Of a stretch of 64,000 nt of DNA, positions 2 through 44,417 are shown one piece after another (position 1 is the stretch's first letter; the number at the start of each line of letters is the position of its first letter). Source of the DNA: Myxococcaceae bacterium JPH2 (GTDB lineage Bacteria; Myxococcota; Myxococcia; Myxococcales; Myxococcaceae); assembly GCA_016458225.1 (NCBI GenBank), contig JAEMGR010000036.1:62001-126000 (forward strand), given 5' to 3'. A program made the position numbers and the translations under genes. The notes under the pieces are model-generated. The model did not search any database. It worked only from the letters and a program-made list of their open reading frames with translations, and was not told where the DNA came from.

Positions 2-1927
2 GCGGGGCTCGCTTCCGTGGACCGCTTCCGCTCCGGCTATTACCAGTCACAGGACGGCAAGCGGCTGGTGCTGCTGGTGCGACCGCCTCAAGTCACCACC
101 GGCTATGCGTTCAACCACACGATGCTGGAGGAGGTGCGGCGGCAGGTGCAGGCGCTGCATCCCGAGCACTTCGACCCTTCGATGCGCGTGGGCTACGACG
201 GCGAGGTCGCGACCATGATGGAGGAGCAGGCCGCGCTCCAGTCGGACCTGCTGACGTCGGGCGTGGTGGTGCTCGCGGGCGTCACGGGCGTGCTGTGGCT
301 CTACTTCCGTCGCTGGCGGGCGCTCGCGGCCATCATCGGCTCGCTCATGGTGGGGTGCTCCGTCACCTTCGGGTTGGCGGACGTGCTCATTGGCCACCTC
401 AACGCGAACACCGCGTTCCTGGGCTCCATCGTGGTGGGCAACGGCATCAACGCCGCCATCATCTACCTGGGCCGCTACCTGGAAGAACGGCACGCGGCGG
501 TGCCCGTCCCCGAGGCCATTCGCATCGCCTGGGCGGGCACGGTGGCGCCCACCTTCGTGGCCTCCTTCGCGGCGGGGCTGGCGTACCTGTCGCTGGCGGT
601 GACGCGCTTTCGCGGCTTCAACCAGTTCGGCGTCATGGGCGGCATGGGCATGGCGCTGTGCTGGTTGTCCGCCTACCTGGTCCTCCCTCCGCTGTTGTAC
701 GTGCTCGAGTCGCCGCGGCCCATGGAGCTTGCCCACGTGGTGGGGGCTCGGCCGCTCACGTCCCGGCTCGCGCGCTGGGTGGTGTCCCGGCGCGGGCTCA
801 TCCAGGTCGTGTCGCTGGTGCTGCTCGCCACGAGCGTGGCGGCCGTCACGTCCTATCAAGGCCCGCTGGTGGAGGCGGACTTCAACAAGCTGCGCGCGCG
901 CGACAGCCAGAAGCACGGCTCCATCTACTGGGGCCATCGCGTGGACGAGGTGTTCCAGTCGTACCTCACGCCGGTGGTCATCGTGGGCGACAGCGCGGAG
1001 GATCTCCAGCGCGTGGTCGACCTGCTCAACGCACGCCAGCGCGCGCTGGGAGACCAGGCGATCCTCGGCGAGGTGCGGACCGCGCGCACGCTGGTGCCCA
1101 TGGACGCCGAAGCCAAGCTCCCGCTGATGCATGAGTTGCGCGCGTTGTTGCCGGACTCGCGGCTGTCCATGCTGCCTCCGGCGCTCCGACACGAGGCTCG
1201 GATGTACCGCCCTCCCGCGAATGCGCGCCCCCCGCGATGGGACGAGGTGCCGCTCACCCTCCGTGAGCCGCTCACCGAGCGCGACGGCACCGTGGGGCGC
1301 GTCGCGTTCGCCTACCCCAAGCGGGTGGGCTCCATCGACGCGCGCTACGGCTTGCAGCTCACCGACACCATCCGCGCCGCCATCCACGATGCCGGGGGCC
1401 GGGCGTTGTCCATGGGAAGGCCCCTGCTCATCGCGGACATCACCCATGCCATCCTGCGAGATGGCCCGCGCGCCACGCTGCTGGCGCTGGCCGCGGTGTC
1501 CGCGCTGGTGTTCGGGGTGACGCGCCACGCGCGGTTGGCGCTGACGGTGCTGGCCGGCCTGCTCCTGGGCGTGGCGTGGTTGGTGGGGTTGGCCGCGCTG
1601 CTGCGGCTGCGGCTCAACTTCCTCAACTTCGTGGTGCTGCCCATCACCTTTGGCATCGGGGTGGACTACGCGGCCAACCTCATCCTGCGCTACCGCGAGG
1701 AGGGACCCGGCTCGCTGTCGCGGGTCATCGAGGGGACGGGCGGAGCGGTGGCGCTGTGCTCGTCCACCACCATCATCGGCTACGCGTCCCTCCTGATGTC
1801 GCGCAACCAGGCGCTCGCGAACTTCGGCCTGCTGGCGGCGATGGGCGAGGTGGCGTGCCTGTCCGCGGCGCTGCTGGCGCTGCCCGCGCTCCTCCTGCCC
1901 AAGCAGGCGTCGACCCCGGAGCCGTAG
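2..1927 (+). CDS. RND/MMPL-family exporter, 5' end outside window
   Basis: The frame is already open at base 2 and runs to TAG at 1927, so only about 640 C-terminal residues are present. Hydrophobic segments occur in two clusters. One covers residues about 75-235 of the visible part and the other about 485-635, with a roughly 230-residue soluble loop between them, which is the second half-porter layout of RND proteins. The final cluster has the small-residue motif FGIGVDYAAN, typical of the MMPL/SSD transmembrane segment 4 or 10 with its proton-relay Asp. The protein probably exports a lipid or other hydrophobic molecule from the inner membrane. The substrate cannot be read from the sequence. 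The GTG at 17 is not accepted as the start because homologous sequence continues upstream. Confidence 0.85.
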   Translation, partial: AGLASVDRFRSGYYQSQDGKRLVLLVRPPQVTTGYAFNHTMLEEVRRQVQALHPEHFDPSMRVGYDGEVATMMEEQAALQSDLLTSGVVVLAGVTGVLWLYFRRWRALAAIIGSLMVGCSVTFGLADVLIGHLNANTAFLGSIVVGNGINAAIIYLGRYLEERHAAVPVPEAIRIAWAGTVAPTFVASFAAGLAYLSLAVTRFRGFNQFGVMGGMGMALCWLSAYLVLPPLLYVLESPRPMELAHVVGARPLTSRLARWVVSRRGLIQVVSLVLLATSVAAVTSYQGPLVEADFNKLRARDSQKHGSIYWGHRVDEVFQSYLTPVVIVGDSAEDLQRVVDLLNARQRALGDQAILGEVRTARTLVPMDAEAKLPLMHELRALLPDSRLSMLPPALRHEARMYRPPANARPPRWDEVPLTLREPLTERDGTVGRVAFAYPKRVGSIDARYGLQLTDTIRAAIHDAGGRALSMGRPLLIADITHAILRDGPRATLLALAAVSALVFGVTRHARLALTVLAGLLLGVAWLVGLAALLRLRLNFLNFVVLPITFGIGVDYAANLILRYREEGPGSLSRVIEGTGGAVALCSSTTIIGYASLLMSRNQALANFGLLAAMGEVACLSAALLALPALLLPKQASTPEP

Positions 1928-2046
1928 GGCGGGAACCGTCGCACGACGAACGGCGCGTGGGACCGCGGGGCAGTGGTGTGGCGCTGCCTGCCAGCCCAGG
2001 TTGCCGCACGCCCCGGGGAGGGGTTGGCGGAGGGAAAGGGCGGGGC

Positions 2047-29095: not shown

Positions 29096-32000
29096 TCACG
29101 GAGGTGTGTCCCGATCACGACGGAAGCGCTCCTGGAGGCCGTGGACGAAGGCATAGAACGTGGGCAGCGCCAGGAGGGTGAAGAGGGTGGATGTCAGGAG
29201 GCCGCCCACCATCACCACCGCGAGGGGCCGCTCAATCTCGGTGCCGTGCAGGGGCAGGACGAGCAGGGGCAGCAGGCCGAGGATGGCCGTTCCGGCGGTG
29301 AGGAGCTTGGGGCGGACGCGGCTGAGGCTGGCCTCGCGGATGGCCTCGGGGAACGAGCGTCCTCGGGCCAGGAGGTCCTTGGTCTGCGCGACGAGCACCA
29401 GGCCGTTCTGCACGGCGATGCCGAACAGACCGATGAGGCCCACGAGGCTGGAGACGTTCCACGTCTCGCCGGCGATGAGCAGCGCGAGGATGCCGCCCAC
29501 GAAGGCGTCCGGCAGCGTGGCGAGGATGACGAGCGCCTCGGCGAGCGAGTCGAGCGCGAGGTACAGCAGCACGAAGACGGCGAGCAGCGCGACGGCGATG
29601 GCCAGGGTGAGGGATTGCGCGGCGCGCTGCTGGCTCTCCACGCGTCCGCCCACGTCGAGGAAGTAGCCGGTGGGCAGGCTCAGCCCGGTGGCCAGCTTCT
29701 GGCGCACCTCGGCGGCGGTGCTCCCGAGGTCACGCCCGGCCACGCTGGCTTCGACCGCGATGCGGCGGCTCCCTGCCTCGCGCCGGATGCTACCCGCGCC
29801 GAAGGTCTCCTCGATCTGGGCGAGCTGGTTGAGCGGGATGCGCGTGCCGTCATGCCCATCCACGAGCAGGTTGCTCAAGGCGTTGAGGTCCCCCCGGCGG
29901 TGATCCGCCAGCCGCAGCACCAGGTCGTAGCGGCGCTGGCCCTTCCACACCTGGGAGAACTCCTCGCCCACCAGCCCCGTCTGCACGGCGCGGATGACGT
30001 CGCCGGGGGTGAGGCCCACGCGCGCCACGGCGGCGCGGTTCACGGTGACGCGAAGCTGCGGCAGGCCGCTGAGCTTCTCCACGCGCAGGTCCTCCACGCC
30101 CTCCACCGAGGCCATGAGCGCGCGCGCCTTCGCGGCCAGCGAGGAGAGCGTCTCCAGGTCCGGCCCGAAGATGCGCACCGAGAGGTCCGCGGGGCTGCCA
30201 CCCAGTCCCTCGTCGATGCGCATGCCCAGCGGCGTGGTGAACAGCGTGGTGACGCCTGGCACGCGGCTCACCGCGTCGCGCAGCGCGTCCTCCAGCTCAT
30301 CGAGGCTGCGCGTCCGGTCCTTCTTCAGGACGACGAGCACGTCCGAGAGCGTGTGCGGCATGGGGTCCTCGGTGCGCTCGGCGCGGCCGGTGCGGCGCAC
30401 CACGTCCTCCACCTCGGGGAAGCCGCGCAGCACGTCCTCCACGTGGTGGTTGAGGCGATCCACCTCTTCCAGTGACGCCTCGGGAGGCAGCACCGTCTGG
30501 AGCAGGAAGGCGCCCTCGTCCAGGCGGGGCATGAAGTCGCTGCCCACCGCGAAGGCCAGCCCCAAGGCGGGCACGGTGATGGCGAGCGCCACCAGCCGCA
30601 CGAGCCCCGCGCGACGCAGGCACGCCTCCAGGAGCGGCGCGTACACGGCCTTCACCTTGCGGATGAACCACACGTCCTCGGGCTTCTCGGGACGCGGCGC
30701 GCGCAGGAACAGTCCTGACGCCACCGGCACCAGCGTGAGCGCCAGGCCCAGCGAGGCCGCGAGGCAGGCCACCACCGCCGCCGCCAGCGGGCGGTACATG
30801 CGGCCCTCGATGCCCGCCATGGCGAACAGCGGGATGAAGACCGACACGACGATGAGGGTCGCGAAGGCGATGGGGCGTCCCACCTCCAGCGAGGCCGCGA
30901 GCGCCTCGTCGCGCACGGAGCGGCGTCCTGCGCCTTCGCGGAGGTCGTGGAGGATGTTCTCCGTCACGATGATGGCCGCGTCCACCAGCAGGCCCACGGC
31001 GATGGCCAGACCTCCCAGCGTCATGGTGTTCAGCCCGATGCCCGCCAGCTTCAGCAGCACGCCCGCGAGCGCCAGCGACAGCGGCAGGGTGAGCGTGACG
31101 ATGAGCGCCGCGCGCCAGTCTCCCAGCAGCGCGAAGAGCACGAGCACCACCAGGAAGGCGCCCAACAGGATGGCTCGGCCCACGCCGCCCAGCGCCGAGT
31201 CCACCAGCTCGGATTGGTCATACACGACGCGCAGCTGCACTCCGGGCGGCAGGCCCTGCTGGAGTTCATCGAGCGCGGCGCGCACGCCTTGGGCCACGCG
31301 CTGCGTGTCCGCGCCGAACTGCTTGATGACCCGGCAGCTCACCACCTCGCCCTTCAGTCGGTGCGCGATGCCGCGGCGCACGGCCGGCGCCTCGCGGACG
31401 TCCGCCACGTCCCCGAGCAACACCGGGGTGCCATCGCGGAGCGCCACCACGGTGCTGTGCAGGTCTTCGACGCTCTGGGCGCGGCCCACCGCGCGCACGG
31501 TCCACTCCATGGGGCCCTGCACGATGAAGCCACCGGAGGCGTTGAGGTTGGCGCCCTCCAGCGCGTGGCGCACCTCGCCCAGCGAGACGCCGCGCGCGAC
31601 CATCTGGTCGGGATCCATCCGCACCTGGAACTGACGCAGGTATCCACCCAGTCGCTCCACGCCCGCGACGCCGGGCACGGCGAGGAGGCGGTTCTTCACC
31701 TCGAACTCGGCCAGGTCCCGGAGCGTCATCAGGTCCGCGGCGCCGGGCTCGGCTTCGAGGGTGAACTCGAACACCTCGTTGAGTCGCCCGGTGAGGCTGG
31801 AGACGAGGGGCGCGTCCGTGCCGGCGGGCAGCTCGGCCTGGGCCTGGGCCACGCGCTCGGCCACGTACTGTCGGCTGCGGAAGTAGTCCGCGTCGGGCTC
31901 GAACTCCACGGTGACCTGCGACACACCGAGCTGTGACGTGGAGCGGATGCGGCGCACGTCCGGCAGGCCCGCGAGCGCCACCTCCATGGGGATGGCCACC

Positions 32001-32218
32001 GCGGTCTCCAGCTCCTCGGCGCCCATGGCCGCGTTCTGGACGATGACGTTGAAGATGGGCGCGGACAGGTCGGGGAACACGTCGCGGCGCAGCCCCTGGA
32101 GCGACACCGCGCCGAGCGCCGACAATGCGAGCGCCAGCACCACGGTGAGGCCAGGCCGCGAGAACGAGGCGCGCAGCACGCGCGCCACCCACGAGGACGG
32201 TGCGTGCTCAGTGCCCAT
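29096..32218 (-). CDS. Heavy-metal efflux RND pump (CusA/CzcA family)
   Basis: 1040 residues from ATG 32218, the full length of HME-RND pumps. It starts with a helix then QNAAMGAEELETAVAIPMEVAL, typical of the family. Transmembrane segment 4 reads GGLAIAVGLLVDAAIIVTEN, with Asp and Glu of the proton relay but Ala where CzcA-type pumps have the first Asp, as in CusA. The later TTPLGMRIDEGLGGSPADLSV is more CzcA-like, so metal specificity is not assigned. It forms a tripartite pump with the adaptor (11-bp overlap) and the TolC protein encoded upstream. Confidence 0.92.
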   Translation of the reverse strand: MGTEHAPSSWVARVLRASFSRPGLTVVLALALSALGAVSLQGLRRDVFPDLSAPIFNVIVQNAAMGAEELETAVAIPMEVALAGLPDVRRIRSTSQLGVSQVTVEFEPDADYFRSRQYVAERVAQAQAELPAGTDAPLVSSLTGRLNEVFEFTLEAEPGAADLMTLRDLAEFEVKNRLLAVPGVAGVERLGGYLRQFQVRMDPDQMVARGVSLGEVRHALEGANLNASGGFIVQGPMEWTVRAVGRAQSVEDLHSTVVALRDGTPVLLGDVADVREAPAVRRGIAHRLKGEVVSCRVIKQFGADTQRVAQGVRAALDELQQGLPPGVQLRVVYDQSELVDSALGGVGRAILLGAFLVVLVLFALLGDWRAALIVTLTLPLSLALAGVLLKLAGIGLNTMTLGGLAIAVGLLVDAAIIVTENILHDLREGAGRRSVRDEALAASLEVGRPIAFATLIVVSVFIPLFAMAGIEGRMYRPLAAAVVACLAASLGLALTLVPVASGLFLRAPRPEKPEDVWFIRKVKAVYAPLLEACLRRAGLVRLVALAITVPALGLAFAVGSDFMPRLDEGAFLLQTVLPPEASLEEVDRLNHHVEDVLRGFPEVEDVVRRTGRAERTEDPMPHTLSDVLVVLKKDRTRSLDELEDALRDAVSRVPGVTTLFTTPLGMRIDEGLGGSPADLSVRIFGPDLETLSSLAAKARALMASVEGVEDLRVEKLSGLPQLRVTVNRAAVARVGLTPGDVIRAVQTGLVGEEFSQVWKGQRRYDLVLRLADHRRGDLNALSNLLVDGHDGTRIPLNQLAQIEETFGAGSIRREAGSRRIAVEASVAGRDLGSTAAEVRQKLATGLSLPTGYFLDVGGRVESQQRAAQSLTLAIAVALLAVFVLLYLALDSLAEALVILATLPDAFVGGILALLIAGETWNVSSLVGLIGLFGIAVQNGLVLVAQTKDLLARGRSFPEAIREASLSRVRPKLLTAGTAILGLLPLLVLPLHGTEIERPLAVVMVGGLLTSTLFTLLALPTFYAFVHGLQERFRRDRDTPP

Positions 32219-33398
32219 GTTCGTCGCCTCCGCCGCTCGACTTCTCCACCTCGGCCTTGAGGAGGAAGGCGCCCTCCACCACCACGCGCTCGCCGGCCTT
32301 CAGCCCGGAGAGCACCTCCACCGAGTCCCCCAGCGTGCGGCCTCGCCCCACCTCGCGCCGCTCGAACATTCCCTTCTCCTCGGTGGGGAGGAACACCACC
32401 CAGCCGTCCTCGAGGCGCTGGAGCGCCGCCGCGGGCACCGTGGTGATGGTGCTGCCGGGACCGCCCAGGGGAATGGAGGCGGAGGCGGACATGCCGGGGC
32501 GCAGCAGGCCCTCGGGGTTCGCCAGCTCCAGTCTCACCGAGAGCGTGCGCGATGCGGCGTCCACGCGCTGCCCCACGTGACGCACGCGCGCGCTGAACTC
32601 CTTGCCGGGAAACGCGGCGAAGGTGACGCGCGCCTCGGTGCCGGGCTGGAGGCGCACCGCGTCCCGCTCGAAGGCGTGCACGATGAGCCACAGCGAGCCC
32701 AGGTCGCCGATGCGGAAGAGCGGGCGCGTGGGCTCGGCCATCTGTCCGAGCCGCGCGTCGCGCTCGATGACCGTGCCGTCGATGGGCGCGCGCAGGAGGA
32801 CGCCGGGGGATGCGGCGTCGGCGGTGTCGTCTCCCTTCGCGCCCAGGGCCACCAGCGCGGCGCGGGCGGCGGACACTTCGGCGTCCGCGGCGGTGGCGTC
32901 GGCCTCGGCGGCCTGGGCGTCCTTCTCCGCGACGATGTGCTCGGTGGCCAGCGTGCGCTTGCGCTCGGCGGCCTGTCTCGCGACGGTGGCGCGGGCCTGC
33001 GCGGCGCGCAGGTTGGCGCGCTCGCGGCCCAGCTCGGGGCTGCGCACGTCCGCGAGCGGCTCACCTGCTCGAACGTGTTGGCCGGTGGTGACGAAGACCG
33101 CGTGCACCCGGGCGGGGACGGGCGGGGCCACCTCGGCGTACGCGTCTTCTCCGAAGGTCAACTCTCCCAGGACGGTGACGCTCTCTCCACCCGGGCGCAC
33201 TTCCACTGGGGAGGTGGTGACGCGCAGGTCGCGCAGCATCTCGGGCGCGATGTGGACGTGGGATTCGTCGTGCTTGCCTTCGGGGTTCGCGGCGCTCGCG
33301 CCTTCGTCATGCGCGGGGGCGTCCTCGTGCGCGGGCGCGTCGCGCTTGCATGCGGTGAGGGGGAGCAGGGCGGCGAGCAGCAGTGCGTAGGACTTCAT
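32208..33398 (-). CDS. RND efflux periplasmic adaptor lipoprotein (CusB/CzcB-like)
   Basis: 396 residues from ATG 33398, overlapping the TolC stop as ATGA. Lipobox LTAC at about residue 17. A His/Asp/Glu-rich stretch follows the Cys (HEDAPAHDEGASAANPEGKHDESHVH) and is a likely metal-binding tail. The lipoyl half (VHAVFVTTGQHVRAGEPLADVRSPELG, in parts), a long helical hairpin, and the beta-barrel/MP domains make up a standard membrane-fusion protein. It ends in another His/Asp tail (GGGDEHGH). It links pump and outer-membrane channel. Confidence 0.9.
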   Translation of the reverse strand: MKSYALLLAALLPLTACKRDAPAHEDAPAHDEGASAANPEGKHDESHVHIAPEMLRDLRVTTSPVEVRPGGESVTVLGELTFGEDAYAEVAPPVPARVHAVFVTTGQHVRAGEPLADVRSPELGRERANLRAAQARATVARQAAERKRTLATEHIVAEKDAQAAEADATAADAEVSAARAALVALGAKGDDTADAASPGVLLRAPIDGTVIERDARLGQMAEPTRPLFRIGDLGSLWLIVHAFERDAVRLQPGTEARVTFAAFPGKEFSARVRHVGQRVDAASRTLSVRLELANPEGLLRPGMSASASIPLGGPGSTITTVPAAALQRLEDGWVVFLPTEEKGMFERREVGRGRTLGDSVEVLSGLKAGERVVVEGAFLLKAEVEKSSGGGDEHGH

Positions 33399-34630
33399 GG
33401 AAGGACTCCCATCTCGACGGCGAGCTGGACGCGGGCGAGGGCGGCGAGGAGCAGCGCGTCCAGCCACGCGGCCCGGGTGTCACGTGTGTCGCGACGGACG
33501 AGGAGGAACTCGGCGAGCCCCATCTCTCCGACCTCGTAGGCGCGGCGCGCGAGGGCGGCGTTCTCGTCCAACAGGGGAAGGGCTTCTTGCTCCAGCAGCA
33601 CCACGGCTTCTTGTCGCTTGCGGTCCAAGGCCCGCGCGGACGCGAGGCTCACCTCGCGCGAACGCCGCGCCGCCTCCAGTGCGCTGCTCATGCGCTGCAC
33701 GCGCGCCTCGGCCGTGACGCGGGTCTCCTGCCCGCGGGCGAAGAGCGGCAGCGGCACGCTCAGGGTCCCGAGCACGGCCGTCTCGTCGGCCTCTCTCTGA
33801 TAGCGCACGCCCACGCCCAGGTCGGGCCAGGCCTCGCCACGTCCCAAGCGCAGCTCTGCTTCGGCGCGAGTGACCTCCGCCTCCAAGGCCGCCAGGTCCG
33901 GGCGCGCGCGCGCCTCGCTGGGCGCATTCACGGGACGAGAGGCCAGGGCGCGCAGCTCTCCCTTGGGCTCCAGGGGGACCTCGGGGCCCAGCCCCAGCAC
34001 GAGGCGCAGCGCGCCCAGCGTCGCCTCGGCGTCGCCCTCCGCGTCCGCCACGTCCGCGCGAGCCCTCGCCAGGGCCACGCGCGCCACGTTCACGTCCACG
34101 CGGGGCACGTCGCCCGCGTCGAGTCGTCGCTGCGTGGAGGAGGCCGTCTCCCGAGCGGCCTCCTCCGCCTGCCGCGCGAGCCCCAGCCGCTCCTGGGCAT
34201 GGAGCGCGCGCAGGAACGCCTCCGCGGCCTCTCCCACGACGCGCCGCTCGGTGTCTCGCTGTCGCTGCTGCTCCGCGGACAGCCCCGCGCGCGCCGCGTC
34301 CCGCCGAGCCCCTTGCTGGCCCGCGAGCTCGAGCGGCTGCGTGAGCCCCACCGCCACGTCGATTCCGCGCGCGCCATCCACCCGGGTTCGAGGGCCGACC
34401 TCGGCTTCGAGGACGGGGTTGGCGCGCAAGAAGGGCGCGGCGCCCGCGACGGGGCCTTGGGCCTCGGCCACGCGGCCTTGGGCCTCGACCACCGCGGGCG
34501 CGCGCTGACGGGCGCGGGCCAGGGCCTCTTCGAAAGTGAGCGCTGGGAGCTGGGCCGCGCCGAGACGTGGCCAGAGGAGCGCGGCGGCGAGCCCGAGGGC
34601 GGCCGACGCGAGTCGACGATGCGACGACAT
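33395..34630 (-). CDS. TolC-family outer-membrane efflux protein (CusC/CzcC-like)
   Basis: 411 residues from ATG 34630, with a Sec signal peptide cleaved near GAA-QL. Two internally similar halves of long helices (LTFEEALARARQRAPAVVEAQGRVAEA and the later RPDLAALEAEVTRAEAELRLGRGEAWPDLGVG, seen in parts) are the OEP repeats of trimeric outer-membrane channels. It is coupled to the adaptor gene by ATGA. Confidence 0.9.
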   Translation of the reverse strand: MSSHRRLASAALGLAAALLWPRLGAAQLPALTFEEALARARQRAPAVVEAQGRVAEAQGPVAGAAPFLRANPVLEAEVGPRTRVDGARGIDVAVGLTQPLELAGQQGARRDAARAGLSAEQQRQRDTERRVVGEAAEAFLRALHAQERLGLARQAEEAARETASSTQRRLDAGDVPRVDVNVARVALARARADVADAEGDAEATLGALRLVLGLGPEVPLEPKGELRALASRPVNAPSEARARPDLAALEAEVTRAEAELRLGRGEAWPDLGVGVRYQREADETAVLGTLSVPLPLFARGQETRVTAEARVQRMSSALEAARRSREVSLASARALDRKRQEAVVLLEQEALPLLDENAALARRAYEVGEMGLAEFLLVRRDTRDTRAAWLDALLLAALARVQLAVEMGVLP

Positions 34631-35234: not shown

Positions 35235-36578
35235 ATGTCGGAAGTGTTGGACGATGGATTGCCGGAGTCCTCTCCGGACACTCCGTCCTCTCGTCTGCCG
35301 GGCTTCCATCGCCGCGGCGTGGACGAGCGATGGCGGGAGCTGGCGCGGCGGGGACATGTCTCACTGGAAGAGCTGCGCGTCTTGCGCGGGTGGGAGGCTT
35401 CTTCCTTCGATGTCGTGAACCAGATGATCGAAAACGCGGTGGGGGTGTTCTCCCTACCGCTGGGGTTGGGGCTGAACCTCACCGTCAACGGGCGCGACCA
35501 TGTGGTGCCCATGGCGGTGGAGGAGCCCTCGGTGGTCGCGGCGGTGTCGTTCGCGGCCAAGGTGGTGCGCCAGGCGGGTGGCTTCACCGCCGAGGCGGAT
35601 GACTCCACCATGATTGCCCAGGTGCAGCTCACCCGGTACGGCTCGGCCGAGGTGGCGCGCTCGCGGGTGCTGGCGGCGCGCGAGCCCTTGCTCGCCCTGG
35701 CCAACAGCTTCCATCCCTCGTTGCAGCGACGGGGCGGCGGCGCGCGCGACGTGCAGGTGCGCATCCTGCCCGCTCCCGAGGGGCCGCAGGGCGAGCCGCT
35801 CTTCATCGTGCACCTGCTGGTGGACACCCAGGAGGCCATGGGCGCCAACCTCATCAACACCATGGCCGAGGGCGTGGCGCCGCTCATCGAGCAGCTCACC
35901 GGCGGGCGCGTCTTCGTGCGCATCCTGTCGAACCTCGCGGATCAACGGCTGGCGCGCGCCTCGTGCCGGATTCCCTTGGAGGCGCTGGCGGACTTCGACC
36001 TGCCCGGCGAGGCCATCGCCGAGGGCATCCTCCAAGCGAGCCGCTTCGCCGAGGCAGACCCCTACCGCGCGGCCACGCACAACAAGGGCGTGATGAACGG
36101 CATCGACGCGGTGGCCATCGCCACGGGGCAGGACTGGCGGGCCATCGAGGCGGGCGCGCATGCGTATGCCTGCCGGATGGGGCGCTACGGGCCGCTGTCT
36201 CGCTGGACGCTGGAGCAAGGCCACCTGGTGGGGCGCATCGAGCTGCCGCTGGCGCTGGGCCTGGTGGGCGGTCCCATCCGCATCCACCCCGGCGCGCAGC
36301 TCGGGCTCAAGTTGCTGCGTGTGTCGTCGGTGCGCGAGCTGGCCATGGTGTTCGCGTCGGTGGGGCTGGCGCAGAACTTCGCGGCGGTGCGCGCGCTGGG
36401 CTCGGTGGGAATCCAGAAGGGCCACATGGCGCTGCACGCGCGCTGCGTCGCCGTCACGGCGGGCGCTCGAGGTCCGGACGTGGAGAAGGTGGCGCGGCTG
36501 CTCGTGGAGCGCGGCAGCGTGAAGGTGGACACCGCGCGCGAGATCCTCGCCTCGTTCCCGGAACTCGCCGCGCCATGA
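35235..36578 (+). CDS. mvaA: Hydroxymethylglutaryl-CoA reductase, class II-like
   Basis: 447 residues from ATG 35235, with GGGGG six bases upstream. The family motif MIENAVGVFSLPLGLGLN at about residues 67-84 carries the catalytic ENxxG Glu, and later FIVHLLVDTQEAMGANLINTM binds the cofactor/substrate region. THNKGVMNGIDAVAIATGQDWRAIEAG holds the catalytic Lys and Asp region of class II (bacterial) enzymes. Length and N-terminus match Pseudomonas MvaA rather than the eukaryotic class I. In myxobacteria the mevalonate route supplies isoprenoids, and its place at the head of an operon beside squalene and sterol genes suggests it feeds them. The stop overlaps the next ATG. Confidence 0.9.
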   Translation: MSEVLDDGLPESSPDTPSSRLPGFHRRGVDERWRELARRGHVSLEELRVLRGWEASSFDVVNQMIENAVGVFSLPLGLGLNLTVNGRDHVVPMAVEEPSVVAAVSFAAKVVRQAGGFTAEADDSTMIAQVQLTRYGSAEVARSRVLAAREPLLALANSFHPSLQRRGGGARDVQVRILPAPEGPQGEPLFIVHLLVDTQEAMGANLINTMAEGVAPLIEQLTGGRVFVRILSNLADQRLARASCRIPLEALADFDLPGEAIAEGILQASRFAEADPYRAATHNKGVMNGIDAVAIATGQDWRAIEAGAHAYACRMGRYGPLSRWTLEQGHLVGRIELPLALGLVGGPIRIHPGAQLGLKLLRVSSVRELAMVFASVGLAQNFAAVRALGSVGIQKGHMALHARCVAVTAGARGPDVEKVARLLVERGSVKVDTAREILASFPELAAP

Positions 36579-38827
36579 TGGAGCCGGCGGGAGACGCGCC
36601 GTCTGCATTCACCTGGCTGGCCGACGCCGTTCATCGGCACGGCCGCTGGGTGCTCGTGGGCAGCGGCGTGCTCCTCGCCCTGGCGGTCTGGGTGCTGGCT
36701 CTGGGGGGGCATCTCACCACCGGCACCATCGACGGCGTCGAGTCCGCGCGGGCCGAGGCGCTCGCTCGGGGCGCCGCCGCGGGCTCGAATGATCAGACGC
36801 TGGCGGTCATCTTCCACCGCGACGACTGGCGCGCGGACGCAGCGCCGTTCCAGGGCGCGGTGTCCCAGGTGCTCGCGCGCGTGGAGAAGCTGCCGGAGGT
36901 GGAGTCGGTGGTGTCTCCCGTGGGTGCGCCCGAGGCCTATCGCGCGCGCTTCGTGGCAGGCACCGGTCACGACGTGCTCGCGCTGGTGCGATTGAAGGGC
37001 GGTGAGCGCGAGGCCACCGCCGCGTTCCCCACGGTGAGCGCCGCGCTCCAGGACCCACGCCTGAGGACCACTATCACCGGCAAGGTGGCTTTCCTCGATG
37101 CGCTCAATGCGCTGCTGGCCCACGACCTCCTGCGCGCCGAACTCATCTCCTTCCCGCTGGCGCTGGTGGTGCTGCTCTGGGTCTTCCGCTCCGTCGTGGC
37201 CGCCGCGCTGCCGCTGGTGGTGGGCGGACTGGCGGTGCTCTGCGGCGTGGCGGGCGTGCTGCTCCTGTCGCGCGTCACGAACATGGCGCAGTACACGCTC
37301 AACGTCGTGTCGCTCATCGGCCTGGGCGTGGCCATCGACTACTCGCTGTTCATCGTCAGCCGCTTCCGCGCGGAGCTGGGCGCGGGGCGCTCGACGGAGC
37401 AGGCCCTGGCGCGCACGCTGGACACGGCGGGCCGAGCGGTCGCGTTCTCCGGACTGGCCGTCACGGTGGGGCTGGGCGGGCTCTTGTTCTTCCGAGGCTC
37501 GTACCTGAGCGCCATGGGGCTGGGCGGCGCGCTGGTGGTGGCCTTCGCGGTGTTGTTCGCGCTCACCGCGCTGCCCGCGCTGCTGTCGTGGCTGGGGCCT
37601 CGGGTGGACCTGGGCCGACTGCCCTTCGTGAACCGCGTGGGGCGGGGCGGAGGCTGGCACGCGCTGGCCACCTGGGTGATGCGTCATCCGTGGTGGGTGC
37701 TCCTGCCCACGCTCGTGCTGCTGCTGGCCATGGGGCTGCCGTTCCGGCGCTTGCAGCTGGCGGCCACGGACATCACCGCGCTGCCCGAGGACACGCCCGC
37801 GCGCCAGGGCGCGGCGACGCTGGCCCGGCTGTTTCCTCGCGAGGCCGCGACCCGCGTGCTGGTGGTGGTGGAGTTCCCGTCGGGGAACCCCTTCACGCCC
37901 GCGCGGGCCAGCGCGCTGTACGACGCGAGCCGACGCATCGCCGCGTTGCCAGGGGTGTTGGGCGTGGAGAGCGCGGTGGACCTCGCGCCGGGGATGGATC
38001 GCTCACGGCTGGAGCAGATGGCCGCCGCGCCGCCGGAGGCCCTGCCGCCAGCGCTGCGCGCCGCGCGCAACGCCTACTTGAGTGGCCACGCGGCGGTGAT
38101 GCAGGTGCTGACGTCCGCTGCGCCCACCAGCCCCGAGGCGCGGGCGTTGGTGCGCACGCTGCGCGAGGAGCGCACGGTGGGCGACGGGCACTTGCTGGTG
38201 GGAGGCCAGACGGCCATGGACGTGGACGCGACGGCCTTCGTGCGTCACCACACGCCCGCGGCCGTGGCCTTCGTGATGGGGATGACGTGCGTGGTCCTCT
38301 TCATCCTCCTGCGCTCGGTGGTGCTGCCCTTGAAGGCGCTCTTGATGAACCTGCTGTCGTTGTGCGGCTCGTTCGGCGCGCTGGTGTGGATATTCCAGGA
38401 GGGACACCTCCAGCACCTGCTGCGCTTCGAGCCCGGACCCATCGAGCCCTCGTTGCCCATCCTGTTGTTCTGCGCGCTGTTCGGCTTGTCGATGGACTAC
38501 GAGGTGTTGCTGCTCAGCCGCATCCGCGAGGAGTGGCTGCGCACGGGCGACAACACCCACGCGGTGGCCGAGGGCCTGGAGCGCACGGGTGGGCTCATCA
38601 CCAGCGCGGCGGCCATCATGGTCGCGGTGTTCGCGGCCTTCTCGCTGGCGACGGTGGTGGTGGTGAAGGCGATGGGCGTGGGCATGGCCATCGCGGTGGC
38701 GCTGGATGCCACGCTGGTGCGGGTGCTCATCGTCCCGTCGATGATGCGGCTGATGGGCGACTTCAACTGGTGGGGGCCCGGCCATTCAGGGCGGCCGGGG
38801 GCGCGGGACTCGGGGACCAGGGGGTGA
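36575..38827 (+). CDS. MMPL/RND-family lipid exporter
   Basis: 750 residues from ATG 36575, overlapping the reductase stop as ATGA. Twelve transmembrane segments occur in two sets of six (one helix then five, twice), each after a periplasmic domain. The two proton-relay helices read GLGVAIDYSLFIVSRFRAEL and FGLSMDYEVLLLSRIREEW, the GxxxDY(S/E) signature of MMPL proteins. Such pumps move mycolates, hopanoids (HpnN) and, in Methylococcus, sterols (BstA). Co-translation with HMG-CoA reductase and closeness to the sterol genes make it a candidate sterol or sterol-glycoside exporter. That assignment is inference. Confidence 0.88.
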   Translation: MMEPAGDAPSAFTWLADAVHRHGRWVLVGSGVLLALAVWVLALGGHLTTGTIDGVESARAEALARGAAAGSNDQTLAVIFHRDDWRADAAPFQGAVSQVLARVEKLPEVESVVSPVGAPEAYRARFVAGTGHDVLALVRLKGGEREATAAFPTVSAALQDPRLRTTITGKVAFLDALNALLAHDLLRAELISFPLALVVLLWVFRSVVAAALPLVVGGLAVLCGVAGVLLLSRVTNMAQYTLNVVSLIGLGVAIDYSLFIVSRFRAELGAGRSTEQALARTLDTAGRAVAFSGLAVTVGLGGLLFFRGSYLSAMGLGGALVVAFAVLFALTALPALLSWLGPRVDLGRLPFVNRVGRGGGWHALATWVMRHPWWVLLPTLVLLLAMGLPFRRLQLAATDITALPEDTPARQGAATLARLFPREAATRVLVVVEFPSGNPFTPARASALYDASRRIAALPGVLGVESAVDLAPGMDRSRLEQMAAAPPEALPPALRAARNAYLSGHAAVMQVLTSAAPTSPEARALVRTLREERTVGDGHLLVGGQTAMDVDATAFVRHHTPAAVAFVMGMTCVVLFILLRSVVLPLKALLMNLLSLCGSFGALVWIFQEGHLQHLLRFEPGPIEPSLPILLFCALFGLSMDYEVLLLSRIREEWLRTGDNTHAVAEGLERTGGLITSAAAIMVAVFAAFSLATVVVVKAMGVGMAIAVALDATLVRVLIVPSMMRLMGDFNWWGPGHSGRPGARDSGTRG

Positions 38828-38828
38828 G

Positions 38829-40031
38829 GTGGTGAGAGCGCGCGACATCGTGTGGGGGCTGGCGGGAGCGGCGGCGCTGGGCGTGCTGCTGCACGGGCAT
38901 CGGGGATTGATGGCGGGCCTGCGCAGGCGCCCGGCCCTCTCCGCGAAGCCGTTCGAGCCGCCGTCGGTGACCATCATCCGCCCCATCCGAGGCCTGGATG
39001 TGGAGGCGCCCGAGAACGTGCGGGCGCTGCTCGACCTGGACTATCCCGGTGAGTGGGAGGTGCTCTTCGTCTTCGACAGCGAGGCCGACCCGGCGTTCGC
39101 GCCGACGCGCGAGGCGCTGCGCTCCCATCCCACGCGCGCGCGGCGCGTGGAAGTCATCGTCGCGGGCGAGCCACCCGAAGGACTGACGGGCAAGCTCAAC
39201 GCGATGCAGGTGGGCATGGCTCGCGCACGAGGCACGCTCGTGGCGTTCAGCGACTCGGACACCCGTCCGGCTCCCAACGTGCTCACCGCGCTGGTGGGCG
39301 CGCTGCTGGAGGACGAGCGCACGGGCGCCACGTTCGCGCCCGTGTACGCGGCATCCGAGGAGCCGCTGGCGGGAGACGTGGGCTACGGGCTGTTGGTGAA
39401 CGCGTGGTACGGCGCGTCCGTGGCGTGTGCCTCGGGACCGGACGGCGCGCTGCCCTTCATCATGGGCCAGATGATGGTGTTCCGCCGCGAGGCGCTGGAT
39501 GCCATTGGCGGCGTGGGCAGCGCCGCGGGCCAGTTCGTGGACGACATGTACCTGGGGCGCCGCCTGCATGAGGCGGGTTGGAAGAACCGCGTCGTGCATG
39601 CGCCGCTGCGCATCGTCACGGGGCGACTGGGGCTGCGCGCGTTCCTGCGCATCTTCCGTCGGTGGATCCTCTTCTCGCAGAGCGGCCTGCCCTGGTCCTT
39701 CGCCCGGCCCAACTGGGCGCGGGGGGTCTCGGTGTGGCTCGCATGGGGGAGCCTGGCCGTGGCGATGTCGCGGCGCGCCTGGAGCATGGCGGCGCTGGCG
39801 ACGCTGCCCATCGGCTTCTCCGTGTGGAGCCAGGTGCGGTTGCAGCGCGCGTGTCATGGGCCGCCGGTGGCGCCTCGCCACCTGTGGGTGCCCGCGGTGC
39901 TGCCGCTCCTGGGCGCGGGCGTGGCGCTGTCCGCGCGGCTGTCGCGCGAGGTGGACTGGCGCGGACGCGGTTATCGGTTGGACGCGAACGCGCGGCTGGG
40001 CACCACGCGCCCCGCCTTGGCCAGCCAATAG
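38829..40031 (+). CDS. Membrane GT2/GT21 glycosyltransferase, ceramide-glucosyltransferase/HpnI-like
   Basis: 400 residues from GTG 38829 (adjacent GTG 38832 is an alternative), one base after the exporter stop. An N-terminal membrane anchor is followed by VTIIRPIRGLDVEAPENVRALL, LTGKLNAM, the metal site SDSDTRP, a later FVDDMYLGRRL and RIFRRWILFSQ. This is the D1-D2-D3-(Q/R)xxRW layout of GT21, followed by two C-terminal helices. Relatives glycosylate ceramide, or a hopanoid in HpnI. Here the acceptor could be a sterol or sphingolipid. The last 61 bases are shared with the end of the convergent squalene epoxidase gene. Confidence 0.85.
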   Translation: MVRARDIVWGLAGAAALGVLLHGHRGLMAGLRRRPALSAKPFEPPSVTIIRPIRGLDVEAPENVRALLDLDYPGEWEVLFVFDSEADPAFAPTREALRSHPTRARRVEVIVAGEPPEGLTGKLNAMQVGMARARGTLVAFSDSDTRPAPNVLTALVGALLEDERTGATFAPVYAASEEPLAGDVGYGLLVNAWYGASVACASGPDGALPFIMGQMMVFRREALDAIGGVGSAAGQFVDDMYLGRRLHEAGWKNRVVHAPLRIVTGRLGLRAFLRIFRRWILFSQSGLPWSFARPNWARGVSVWLAWGSLAVAMSRRAWSMAALATLPIGFSVWSQVRLQRACHGPPVAPRHLWVPAVLPLLGAGVALSARLSREVDWRGRGYRLDANARLGTTRPALASQ

Positions 40032-41380
40032 ACAGGACGTTGGACGCAGCGATGCCACCACGCTTCCATCTGCTCCACCGCGCTCTCCATGGCGGTCTTC
40101 AACGGCGGACCGGCCGAGCGCAACAGCGGCGCGGCCGAGCGCAGCGGCACGGTCCGCTGCCGGGGCGAGGCCAGGCTCGTGAGCGCATGGCCCACCACGC
40201 AGAGGTACTCGCGGGCCATGACATGCATGCGGGGCTCCTCGGCGGCGAGCAGCGACATGGAGGTTCGTGCGCCGCTGGGGCTGTGCTCCCAATAGCGCAC
40301 GAGCCCGCGACGCAGGGCGCGCATGCCCTCATCCTGGCCGGCGAAGGCGTCATAGAGCGCGGACGCGAGCGCCACGCGGGTGCGCTGCGCGGGGCGTCGC
40401 GCGCGGGCGTACTCCTCCAGCGCGAGCGGGATGTCCGTCCGATGCCGCCGCAGGGCGTCCTGGAGCGCGCGGGCATCGCGGAAGCACGAGGCCATGCCGC
40501 TGGCGGTGAGGGGATGACAGCATGCGGCGGCGTCTCCGACGAGCACGGCGCTGCCCACCCTCACGGTGCCGGAGAGCCGAGCATCATTCGAGGCCAGCCG
40601 GGGCGCGGGGGGGGTCTCCAAGGCACGCAGGACCTCGGCGCGCAGCTCCAAGGGGAGGGCGCCGAGCAGCTCGGGCCGAGCCTGGAGGGTGCTCGCGTTG
40701 CTGCCCAGGGGCAGGTCCACCATCACGCGCGCCACGCCGGGCTGGATGGCGTAGGCCAGCGCGTGCATCGGGCCCCCTACGAAGATGTGCCCGTAGCCAG
40801 GGTGGGGCAGGCTGTCGCTGTCCACGGTGACGCCGAGCATGGTGGAGATGCGGTGCAGGCGCTCGGGGATGCCGAGCATGCGCCGCACGGGCGAGGCTCG
40901 GCCGTCCGCGGCCACCAGGAGCCGGGCGCGGACCGTGTGCTCGGTGCCGTCTTGGATGAAGCGCACGTGGACGCCCTTCGCGTCATTGCGCTCCACCGCC
41001 GTGACGCGCGCCTTGGGAATCAATGTGACGCCGGGGCGCGAGGCCACCGACTCCAGCAGCGGCACGGTGAGCGAGGCATGCTCGAGCGACACGCCCGTGA
41101 CGCCGCGTCCGTAGGGCAGCAGGACGGTATGCCGCGGTGCGTGGAAGCGCACGGCGAAGCCTCGCACGGGCTGGGACGTCCAGCGATCCACCACCGCGTC
41201 GAAGTGCAACGCGCGCAGATCCGCCACGCCGGAGGGGTGCAGCAGCTCTCCCGCAAGTTGTTTGTGGCGGTCCACGCCCGCGTCCACCAACATGACGGAC
41301 ATCCCCAGCCCCGCCATTGCCGCAGCCGCCGCGCAGCCCGCGGGTCCGCCACCGGCAATCACCGCATCGACGTCCCGCAT
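39971..41380 (-). CDS. sqmo: Squalene epoxidase (squalene monooxygenase)
   Basis: 469 residues from ATG 41380, with GGTGGGGG upstream. FAD-binding AVIAGGGPAGCAAA at residues 6-19; GELLHPSG at 44-51, the counterpart of GEFLQPGG in eukaryotic SQLE; the ADG motif at about 157; and LVGDAAACCHPLTASGM at about 278-294, matching the SQLE GDAxNMRHPLTGGGM segment including the HPLT core. The C-terminal helices (SALYDAFAGQDEGMRALRRG, then LSLLAAEEPR) also follow SQLE. It converts squalene to 2,3-oxidosqualene using O2 and a flavin reductant. It is divergent from squalene synthase and the cyclase. Confidence 0.88.
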   Translation of the reverse strand: MRDVDAVIAGGGPAGCAAAAAMAGLGMSVMLVDAGVDRHKQLAGELLHPSGVADLRALHFDAVVDRWTSQPVRGFAVRFHAPRHTVLLPYGRGVTGVSLEHASLTVPLLESVASRPGVTLIPKARVTAVERNDAKGVHVRFIQDGTEHTVRARLLVAADGRASPVRRMLGIPERLHRISTMLGVTVDSDSLPHPGYGHIFVGGPMHALAYAIQPGVARVMVDLPLGSNASTLQARPELLGALPLELRAEVLRALETPPAPRLASNDARLSGTVRVGSAVLVGDAAACCHPLTASGMASCFRDARALQDALRRHRTDIPLALEEYARARRPAQRTRVALASALYDAFAGQDEGMRALRRGLVRYWEHSPSGARTSMSLLAAEEPRMHVMAREYLCVVGHALTSLASPRQRTVPLRSAAPLLRSAGPPLKTAMESAVEQMEAWWHRCVQRPVYWLAKAGRVVPSRAFASNR

Positions 41381-41451: not shown

Positions 41452-42501
41452 ATGACTGTTCCCGGAGAGTCGTTTTGCCGCACGCAACTGCCCCGGGTGT
41501 CCCGCACCTTCGCGCTCAACATCCCCTTGCTCCCCGAGCCGCTCGACCTGGCCGTGACGGTGGCCTACTTGCTGTGCCGCATCGCGGACACGCTGGAGGA
41601 CGAGGCCCCTGGGGCGCTGCAGGGTGAGCTGCTCACGGCGTTGGCGGAGCTGGTGACCCTGCGGCCGGGCTGGGAAGGCCGTGCCCGCTCCTTCGTCCAG
41701 CGAGCGGGGCCCTCCTTGAGGGGCGAGACGCCGAGCGCGGAGGCGGAGCTGGTCGCCGGCACGCCCACGGTGCTGGAGGCCCTGGCCTCGCTTCCCACGT
41801 GGGTCCAACCGCATATCGCGCGGTGCGTGCGCACCATGACCGACGGCATGGTGCAGATGCAGCGCGAGCACGGCAGCGCGGGGCGCATCCGCGGGCTGCC
41901 AGACCTCGAGGCGACGTTCAGGTACTGCTACTACGTGGCGGGCGTGGTGGGGGAGATGTTGACGGAGCTCTTCATCGACTACTCGCCCCGCGTCGCGCCG
42001 CACGCGTCCACGCTCATCCCGCGCGCTCCCGCGTTCGGTCGCGCGCTGCAGCTCACCAACATCCTCAAGGACGTGCGCGAGGACCTGGACCGGGGCTACT
42101 GCTGGTTGCCGCGGGACCGGATGGCCGCGCACGGCCTGGAGCCCACCACGCTCACGCAGCCTGGCAACCGCGCGCGGGCGGTGGCGATGATGGAGGAGCT
42201 GGTGGCGGTGGCGCGGCGCGAGCTGGACGCCGCGATGGAGTACTCGCTGGCGCTGCCGGTGGAGGAGCCGGGCCTGCGGCTGTTCTGCCTCTATCCGCTC
42301 TTCTTCGCGGCGCTGACGCTCAACGCGCTGGATGGCAACCCCGCGGTGTTCGACCCGGCGCCGGTGAAGATCAGCCGGGACGCGGTGCGCGCGGTGATGC
42401 TGCTCACGCAGGAGCGCGTGGGCTCGGACGGCGCGCTGCGGGCGCTGTACGGGGACTGCTCGCGGACGTCGCATGGGGAGGGGGAGGAGGCAGTGCGGTG
42501 A
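41452..42501 (+). CDS. sqs: Squalene synthase (farnesyl-diphosphate farnesyltransferase)
   Basis: 349 residues from ATG 41452, with GGAGGA 5 bases upstream. The first aspartate-rich motif DTLED is at residues 46-50 and the second, DVREDLDRGYCWLP, begins at 207. The central YCYYVAGVVGEMLTELF is the YCxYVAGxVG signature of squalene synthases rather than phytoene synthases. It condenses two farnesyl diphosphates to presqualene diphosphate and then, with NADPH, squalene. A single gene is used here instead of the HpnCDE route. The stop overlaps the cyclase start (GTGA). Confidence 0.9.
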   Translation: MTVPGESFCRTQLPRVSRTFALNIPLLPEPLDLAVTVAYLLCRIADTLEDEAPGALQGELLTALAELVTLRPGWEGRARSFVQRAGPSLRGETPSAEAELVAGTPTVLEALASLPTWVQPHIARCVRTMTDGMVQMQREHGSAGRIRGLPDLEATFRYCYYVAGVVGEMLTELFIDYSPRVAPHASTLIPRAPAFGRALQLTNILKDVREDLDRGYCWLPRDRMAAHGLEPTTLTQPGNRARAVAMMEELVAVARRELDAAMEYSLALPVEEPGLRLFCLYPLFFAALTLNALDGNPAVFDPAPVKISRDAVRAVMLLTQERVGSDGALRALYGDCSRTSHGEGEEAVR

Positions 42502-44417
42502 CGCGGCGGGCGCGCGACGTGCTCGCCCGGACCCAGGAGGCGGATGGCTCCTGGAAGGGCGACTACGGCGGCCCGCTGTTCCTGGGGCCGGTGTACGTGG
42601 CGGCGCTGTACCTGATGGGCCGCGCGCCGGAGCCGGACATCCGTGAGGGGATGCTCACGCATGGGCGGATCCACCAGAACGCGGATGGCGGCTGGGGCCT
42701 GGATGTGGAGTCGCCCAGCCTCGTCTTCACCACGGCGCTCAACTACGTGGCGGCGCGGCTGTTGGGTGTGCCCGCGGAGGACCCGGCGCTCGTGCGCGCG
42801 CGGGCGTGGCTGCATGCCCAAGGGGGGCCGCTGGGCAGCGGGTCGTGGGGAAAGTTCATCCTCGCGCTGCTGGGGCTCTACGACTACGAGGGCCTGGCGC
42901 CCGTCCCGCCCGAGCTGTGGCTCCTGCCGCGCGTGCTCCCGTTCCATCCCTCGCGGCTGTGGTGCCACTGCCGCATGGTGTACCTGCCCATGGGGTGGCT
43001 CTACGGGCATCGGGCGCGGGCGCCGGAGACGCCGCTGCTCGCCGAGCTGCGCCGCGAGCTGTACCCCGAGCCCTACGAGACCGTGGATTGGAAGGCGGCG
43101 CGAGAGCGGGTGGCGCCTTCGGACGCGTACACGCCTCGCACCTTCTGGCTGCGCGCGGTGAACCGCGCGCTGGGCGTCTATGAGCGCGTGCACTCGAAGC
43201 GGCTGCGCGCGCGGGCGTTGGAGGAGTCGCTCGCGCAGATGCGCGGCGAGGACGAGGCCACGCACTACATCTGCATCGGGCCCATCAACAAGGTGCTCCA
43301 CGCGGCGGTGTGGCACCTGGCGCGGCCCGGGGGACCGGAGGTCCAAGCCCACCTGGAGCGCCTGCCGGACTACCTCCAGCGCTCCGAGGATGGCGTGAAG
43401 GTCAACGGCTACAACTCCTCGCAGCTCTGGGACACCGCCTTCGCAGTGCAGGGGCTGGTGGCGTCAGGGCAAGCAGCGTCCGCGCGCGAGACGCTGGCGC
43501 GCGCGGCGGACTTCCTGGAGTCGCAGCAAGTCCTCGAGGACTCGCCTCAGGCGGCGCGCTTCCACCGCCACCCCAGTCGAGGCGGCTGGCCCTTCAGCAC
43601 GCGCGCGCACGGCTGGCCCATCAGCGACTGCACGGCGGAGGGCGTGAAGGCGTGCCTCCTGCTGGAGCCGCTGGGGCTCAACCGCGTGTCGCGCGAGCGG
43701 CTGGGGCACGCGGTGGAGTTCATCCTCTCGCTGCAGAACCGGGACGGCGGCTGGGCCACGTATGAGCCACAGCGCGGGCCGCGTTGGTTGGAGCGCCTCA
43801 ATCCCTCGGACGTGTTCGCCGGCATCATGGTGGACACCAGCTATGTCGAGTGCACCTCGGCCTGTGTGCAGGCGTTGGTGGCGTGGCGACGGGTGACGCC
43901 CGGCGCTCCGGTGGAGCGGGCCATCGCGCGAGGCGTGGACTTCTTGCGCCGGAGCCAGCGTGCGGATGGGAGCTGGGAGGGCTCGTGGGGCGTGTGCTTC
44001 AGCTACGGCACGTGGTTCGGAGTCACGGGGCTGGTGGCCGCGGGAGTTCCCCAGGAGGATCCCGCGCTGCGGCGCGCCTCGGCCTTCTTGCGTGCGCGTC
44101 AGCGGACCGACGGCGCATGGAGCGAGACCATCCAAAGCTGCCGTGAGCGGCGCTGGGTGGAGGGGGCCGCGGGCCACGCGGTGACGACGTCGTGGGCGCT
44201 GCTGTCGCTCGTGGCCACCGGGGACGGCGCCTCCGAGTCCGTGCGGCGCGGCGTGGCGTGGCTGCGAGGCTGGCAGGGCGCCGACGGTCGCTGGCCGCGC
44301 GAGCCGCTCGCGGGCGTGTTCAACCGCACGTGTGCCATCCACTACGACGCGTATCTGCGCATCTTCCCGTTGTGGGCGCTGGCGCTCGCGGACCCTCAGG
44401 GGGGCGCGGCTTCCTGA
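42498..44417 (+). CDS. osc: Oxidosqualene cyclase, cycloartenol-synthase type
   Basis: 639 residues from GTG 42498, overlapping the squalene-synthase stop. It has the catalytic DCTAE motif (Asp377 in WPISDCTAEG) of oxidosqualene cyclases, not the DxDD of squalene-hopene cyclases. Landmarks match eukaryotic enzymes in order: CHCRMVYLPMGWLYG, IGPINKVL, NGYNSSQLWDTAF, VDTSYVECTSA, DGSWEGSWGVCFSYGTWFG, GVFNRTCAI, and several QW repeats. Product-determining sites read Tyr305, His371 and Ile375, equivalent to Tyr410, His477 and Ile481 of Arabidopsis cycloartenol synthase (lanosterol synthases have Thr, Cys/Gln, Val). It is about 100 residues shorter at the N-terminus than plant enzymes. The predicted product is cycloartenol. 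Membrane-associated. Confidence 0.93.
   Translation: MTRRARDVLARTQEADGSWKGDYGGPLFLGPVYVAALYLMGRAPEPDIREGMLTHGRIHQNADGGWGLDVESPSLVFTTALNYVAARLLGVPAEDPALVRARAWLHAQGGPLGSGSWGKFILALLGLYDYEGLAPVPPELWLLPRVLPFHPSRLWCHCRMVYLPMGWLYGHRARAPETPLLAELRRELYPEPYETVDWKAARERVAPSDAYTPRTFWLRAVNRALGVYERVHSKRLRARALEESLAQMRGEDEATHYICIGPINKVLHAAVWHLARPGGPEVQAHLERLPDYLQRSEDGVKVNGYNSSQLWDTAFAVQGLVASGQAASARETLARAADFLESQQVLEDSPQAARFHRHPSRGGWPFSTRAHGWPISDCTAEGVKACLLLEPLGLNRVSRERLGHAVEFILSLQNRDGGWATYEPQRGPRWLERLNPSDVFAGIMVDTSYVECTSACVQALVAWRRVTPGAPVERAIARGVDFLRRSQRADGSWEGSWGVCFSYGTWFGVTGLVAAGVPQEDPALRRASAFLRARQRTDGAWSETIQSCRERRWVEGAAGHAVTTSWALLSLVATGDGASESVRRGVAWLRGWQGADGRWPREPLAGVFNRTCAIHYDAYLRIFPLWALALADPQGGAAS

Follow-up and report, generated by a model that had tools for sequence, protein, structure and literature searches.

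Which lipid do a transporter and a glycosyltransferase handle when their genes lie beside a plant-type sterol pathway in a soil myxobacterium? The question is raised by a locus of Myxococcaceae bacterium JPH2, in which genes for a HMG-CoA reductase (HMGR), a transporter of the MMPL family and a membrane-bound glycosyltransferase (GT) stand in front of those for squalene epoxidase (SQE), squalene synthase (SQS) and oxidosqualene cyclase (OSC). Here we used gene layout, family placement, structure prediction and distribution across genomes to address it.

Gene layout and junctions

The window, that is, the whole stretch of 64,000 nucleotides that was analysed, has a GC content of 72% and contains the following features (window coordinates):

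35235..36578, plus strand: class II HMGR, cluster copy; 75% identical to its paralog in the mevalonate operon at another genomic site
36575..36578, plus strand: ATGA start/stop overlap of HMGR and MMPL, kept in relatives
36575..38827, plus strand: MMPL/RND transporter, MmpL3-like (HAE-2 type); proton-relay pairs D254-Y255 and D640-Y641 invariant
38829..40031, plus strand: membrane-bound GT-A glycosyltransferase (GT2/GT21-like); DSD 142-144, VDD 237-239 and FRRW 276-279 invariant
39971..41380, minus strand: SQE (PF08491), convergent with the GT gene and overlapping its 3' end
41452..42501, plus strand: SQS (PF00494; TIGR01559 below cut-off)
42498..44417, plus strand: OSC (TIGR03463 over cut-off; I453), with a GTGA overlap with the SQS stop

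The HMGR stop codon (TGA, 36576-36578) shares its overlap with the ATG of the MMPL gene (36575-36577), a second ATG being present at 36578, and the MMPL stop codon (38825-38827) is separated by one base from the GTG start of the GT gene at 38829. All three genes run in the same direction, and the coordinates confirm the sequence-only reading of the locus, in which an ATGA overlap at one junction and a gap of a single base at the other bind them together. Four-base overlaps recur in the relatives: the HMGR/MMPL junction is ATGA in every relative with all three genes, and nearly all of them show an xTGA overlap between MMPL and GT, among them metagenome-assembled genomes (MAGs) with 55-68% identity. 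Only Citreicoccus has the 1-base gap. The window itself belongs to a Citreicoccus-like myxobacterium; the GT of Citreicoccus inhibens M34, the only other genome of the genus in our search, is 98% identical. Because the overlaps are conserved among relatives, the coupling of HMGR, MMPL and GT goes beyond chance, and the junctions suggest that the three genes share one transcript. A scan of the locus for promoters and intrinsic terminators gave nothing above shuffled sequence.

Convergent overlaps are found at two further places, where the SQE frame overlaps the 3' end of the GT gene by 61 bases (39971-40031) and the gene for a large sensor histidine kinase overlaps the 3' end of the OSC gene by 22 bases (44396-44417). 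Just upstream of the sterol cluster, and divergent from it, lies a heavy-metal-type RND efflux set on the minus strand (29096-34630; outer membrane factor, membrane fusion protein and pump, named by eye). A further MMPL-type gene stands at the start of the window (29-1996), and the genome holds 26 MMPL-domain matches.

The sterol core genes and the second HMGR

The cyclase encoded 2.5 kb downstream of the triad scores 892 bits against TIGR03463 (cut-off 851) and carries the DCTAE motif. A genome-wide PF13243 search returned no other cyclase of the squalene/oxidosqualene type, so the earlier remark that the neighbourhood lacks a hopanoid cyclase was correct. Isoleucine at position 453, which marks cycloartenol producers in Wei et al. 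(2016; PMC4919349), is present in the OSC of all MMPL-GT-clustered copies read, as well as in the OSCs of genomes of the g6 and g7 type, two genera that we compared with the Corallococcus group; the Methylococcus and Sandaracinaceae controls have V453. By model score, motif and residue, the OSC of the window is thus classified as an oxidosqualene cyclase of the cycloartenol type. The core of SE, SQS and OSC has the same SE-x-OSC spacing as COCOR_01775/01777 in that work, whose account of the sterol core genes, in the sections available, makes no mention of neighbouring MMPL, GT or HMGR genes. Two variants of the core were seen in relatives: in Corallococcus terminator (L163:37-6110), the order of SQS and SQE between GT and OSC is swapped, and in the MAG PMG_225 (L167:11197-13577), a second squalene epoxidase and OSC, both in fragments, adjoin the intact copies, which may reflect a tandem duplication in decay or an artefact of assembly.

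The HMGR is assigned to class II by TIGR00532 (389 bits, cut-off 260). The second genomic copy lies in a mevalonate operon, whose other genes, read by eye, encode isopentenyl-diphosphate isomerase (idi), mevalonate kinase, decarboxylase and phosphomevalonate kinase. The cluster copy occurs only in Citreicoccus, in part of Corallococcus and in the five OSC-bearing genomes of the Myxococcus group, and would most simply be a duplicate that raises flux through the committed step.

Family placement of the transporter

The MMPL protein (749 amino acids, PF03176) had been compared with the hopanoid transporter HpnN and the sterol transporter BstA, a kinship that our data do not bear out. Among solved structures, MmpL3 is the best match at 270 bits, compared to 24.5 bits for HpnN, and the HpnN model reaches only 68 bits (cut-off 752). 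The predicted structure, a middling model (pLDDT 70, 13 sequences), aligns to MmpL3 with a Z score of 45 over ~650 residues at 29% identity, and both Asp-Tyr proton-relay pairs, in TM4 and TM10, are invariant. In a quick tree with long branches, which included Methylococcales RND proteins as BstA proxies (one of them encoded beside OSC and SQE), six true HpnN and five MMPL paralogs from the same genome, the protein groups with mycobacterial MmpL3 and apart from BstA and HpnN (branch value 100). The five paralogs fall on the BstA/HpnN side, away from the cluster MMPL, so a placement of the latter among drug exporters was rejected.

By sequence, fold and tree, the transporter is of the MmpL3-like (HAE-2) type. 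It differs from MmpL3, the mycobacterial exporter of trehalose monomycolate (PDB 6AJF, 7NVH), in its ~30% identity, in the absence of the long C-terminal tail and in its linkage to OSC rather than to mycolate genes, and it scores 321 bits against the mycolate-exporter equivalog model NF052608, below the cut-off of 1400. With BstA and HpnN it shares the RND superfamily and PF03176, and BstA genes also lie by OSC; no bstB- or bstC-like genes were seen in the triad. Despite the separate kinship, the role may be similar to that of HpnN and BstA, namely, the export of an isoprenoid-derived lipid.

Family placement of the glycosyltransferase

The resemblance of the GT to HpnI and to ceramide glucosyltransferases, also suggested from the sequence, likewise does not appear to extend to close kinship. 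The protein matches PF13506 (GT21), and its best NCBIfam model is that of HpnI (TIGR03472), at 118 bits with a cut-off of 310. In a profile comparison, human UGCG matches it over nearly its whole length (E value of 4e-23). Yet in the tree the cluster GT forms part of a separate GT-A clade (100/99), outside both the HpnI clade, represented by rows from Acidobacteriota since no Methylococcales member scored over the HpnI cut-off, and the UGCG-like GT21 clade. UGCG (PDB 26QF), a long branch with which the cluster GT has the GT21 Pfam domain in common, groups instead with another glycosyltransferase of the same genome (L134) and with L279-L281. HpnI, the bacteriohopanetetrol glycosyltransferase, has the same layout of a GT-A domain plus membrane helices, whereas the only cyclase of this genome is an OSC.

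The predicted structure (pLDDT 91) has a GT-A fold of the processive type with C-terminal membrane helices, and its closest fold matches include hyaluronan synthase (Z 24), PcManGT (Z 23) and cellulose synthase. This fold and the invariant DSD, VDD and FRRW motifs mark it as an inverting GT-A enzyme with membrane helices. Enzymes that glycosylate sterols, i.e., UGT80/UGT51 (GT1) and the Helicobacter cholesterol glucosyltransferase (GT4), are GT-B enzymes; they would share the proposed reaction with the cluster GT, which is GT-A and GT2-like.

The cluster GTs sit within a larger clade with members from Acidobacteriota, Gemmatimonadota, Methylococcus and others, mostly in OSC-free genomes; at 37-48% identity, OSC is absent in 8 of 10 genomes. 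The clade seems to consist of lipid glycosyltransferases whose acceptors vary. Partners change across it, from RND proteins (L182, L184) to START-like and GH38 proteins. The latter combination, a START/polyketide-cyclase-type lipid-binding protein with a GH38 alpha-mannosidase-like protein, recurs in sterol-free bacteria (L180:9243-13668, L185, L191). In a Sandaracinaceae MAG with OSC, a GT relative lies ~6 kb from a Rieske-KshA_C-SCP2 fusion and a FA_hydroxylase protein (L192:7832-11024), the fusion being a putative sterol-acting oxygenase because of its SCP2 part. Sterol-producing Methylococcales have GT relatives (L189, G157), none of them near OSC in the stretches read.

Co-occurrence with OSC across genomes

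We searched one set of 145 genomes of the order with four queries, with ortholog calls at ~48-98% identity and a clear drop to ~30% for paralogs. Within the family f1 (96 genomes), OSC is present in 47, the MMPL ortholog in 35 and the GT ortholog in 28; all 35 MMPL genomes and all 28 GT genomes contain OSC, and neither ortholog occurs in any of the 49 OSC-free genomes, counts that are not phylogenetically independent but in which several separate gains or losses agree. OSC and MMPL are polymorphic yet always concordant within genera (5 genomes with and 22 without in g19, 4 and 3 in g7, 3 and 1 in g6). The gene order MMPL-GT-(SQE)-SQS-OSC is found in g1, g5, g19, g21 and g11, with HMGR in front in only part of them; in g6 and g7, which have neither GT nor HMGR in the cluster, MMPL follows OSC directly, and in G041, a genome from a different family, it lies 2.7 kb behind OSC. 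Since these placements differ from the MMPL-GT clusters, the link between OSC and MMPL exists in more than one arrangement, and it is MMPL that accompanies OSC most constantly, with GT and HMGR as optional additions. This supports the view that the sterol pathway is the natural partner of the transporter and the glycosyltransferase, for which co-occurrence with osc had been proposed as a check.

Discussion

Our preferred reading, to which we give nearly an even chance, is that the triad is an accessory operon of the cycloartenol-type sterol pathway in which the GT adds a sugar to the sterol and the resulting conjugate is exported by the MMPL protein. The second HMGR would raise the mevalonate supply for SQS, SQE and OSC; the GT, an inner-membrane protein with a cytosolic active site, would transfer a sugar residue from a nucleotide donor to the 3-OH of OSC's sterol product; and the MMPL protein, driven by the proton gradient, would carry the steryl glycoside from the inner membrane in the direction of the cell envelope. 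Where a species lacks the GT, the same transporter would move free sterol. Gene order, coupling, co-occurrence with OSC, family placement and the conserved catalytic and proton-relay residues are observed; the substrate, the sugar, which way the transporter works and what HMGR contributes are what we infer, and the export of a sterol glycoside, in particular, is suggested by the resemblance to MmpL3, which is a glycolipid exporter.

MmpL3 exports a non-sterol glycolipid, and the pair could instead be a general module for glycolipid synthesis and export, acting on ceramide, a hydroxylated carotenoid or another lipid and lying beside OSC since both serve envelope lipids. We consider this unlikely, though with a substantial claim to attention. 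The wider GT and MMPL families are not tied to sterols, GT relatives pair with unrelated RND proteins or with START/GH38 proteins, and MMPL and GT are coupled in the MAG DBS2-1.bin68 (G038, completeness 98%), in which a search found no OSC, squalene-hopene cyclase or SQE; these observations argue against sterol specificity. In that MAG, either the pair served another lipid before meeting OSC or the lineage switched its use. Against a general module stand the absence of the pair from all OSC-free genomes of family f1, the tracking of OSC by MMPL even where the GT is missing, and L134, a GT21-type enzyme of the same genome that groups with ceramide glucosyltransferase. The sequence-only reading had named two placements as evidence against a sterol role, and only part of this was found: distant GT and MMPL relatives, including the one coupled pair, do occur in sterol-free species, but the MMPL protein did not group with drug exporters.

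The reading of the triad as a sterol glycosylation and export operon also bears on a published anomaly. According to PMC4919349, the key residues are intact in both SE and OSC of Corallococcus coralloides, but only squalene was found in it, in agreement with an earlier study, whereas Cystobacter fuscus and Stigmatella aurantiaca produce cycloartenol. As described there, the lipid extracts were acetylated, without hydrolysis, and the authors propose non-expression for the lack of detected sterols in Corallococcus. In our data, the GT is present in 16 of 16 Corallococcus-group genomes, whereas g6 and g7 carry OSC and MMPL but lack it. We take g6 and g7 to be Cystobacter and Stigmatella, which the locus-tag spacing fits, and three of the genomes (G058, G078 and G074) to be C. 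coralloides DSM 2259, S. aurantiaca DW4/3-1 and C. fuscus, respectively. If these names are right, the presence of the GT coincides with the missing free sterol, and glycosylation by the GT would therefore account both for the lack of free sterol in C. coralloides and for the free cycloartenol of the apparently GT-less Cystobacter and Stigmatella. We thus speculate, as a doubtful but not far-fetched possibility, that Corallococcus-type myxobacteria turn all the cycloartenol that they make de novo into steryl glycosides by a GT-A enzyme and export them by a MmpL3-type pump. Lack of expression could equally explain why no sterols were detected in Corallococcus.

That latter explanation is part of another alternative, in which the MMPL protein exports free sterol as the myxobacterial counterpart of BstA, the GT acts on another molecule or only on a minor sterol pool, and the Corallococcus cluster is silent in culture. 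The position of MMPL behind OSC without a GT in g6 and g7, taken as producers of free cycloartenol, speaks for it, as does the reason offered in PMC4919349; the coupling of GT to MMPL in all Corallococcus-type clusters and the restriction of f1 GT orthologs to OSC genomes make it improbable. A chance neighbourhood of three unrelated genes in a compact genome, compatible with the high gene density and with the commonness of the wider families, is already disfavoured and very improbable indeed, given that order and overlaps are kept down to 55-68% identity and that the genes are jointly present or absent across genera.

If Corallococcus-type myxobacteria do convert and export all their cycloartenol in this way, the GT-A enzyme would differ from every sterol glycosyltransferase known, and the operon would represent an independent solution to bacterial sterol transport. 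Glycosylated sterols would escape routine GC-MS, which would resolve the Corallococcus puzzle. The locus offers specific candidate genes for both steps in culturable bacteria, and with them a specific, cheap prediction for the anomaly of sterol core genes without sterol, set against genera with free cycloartenol that apparently lack the GT.
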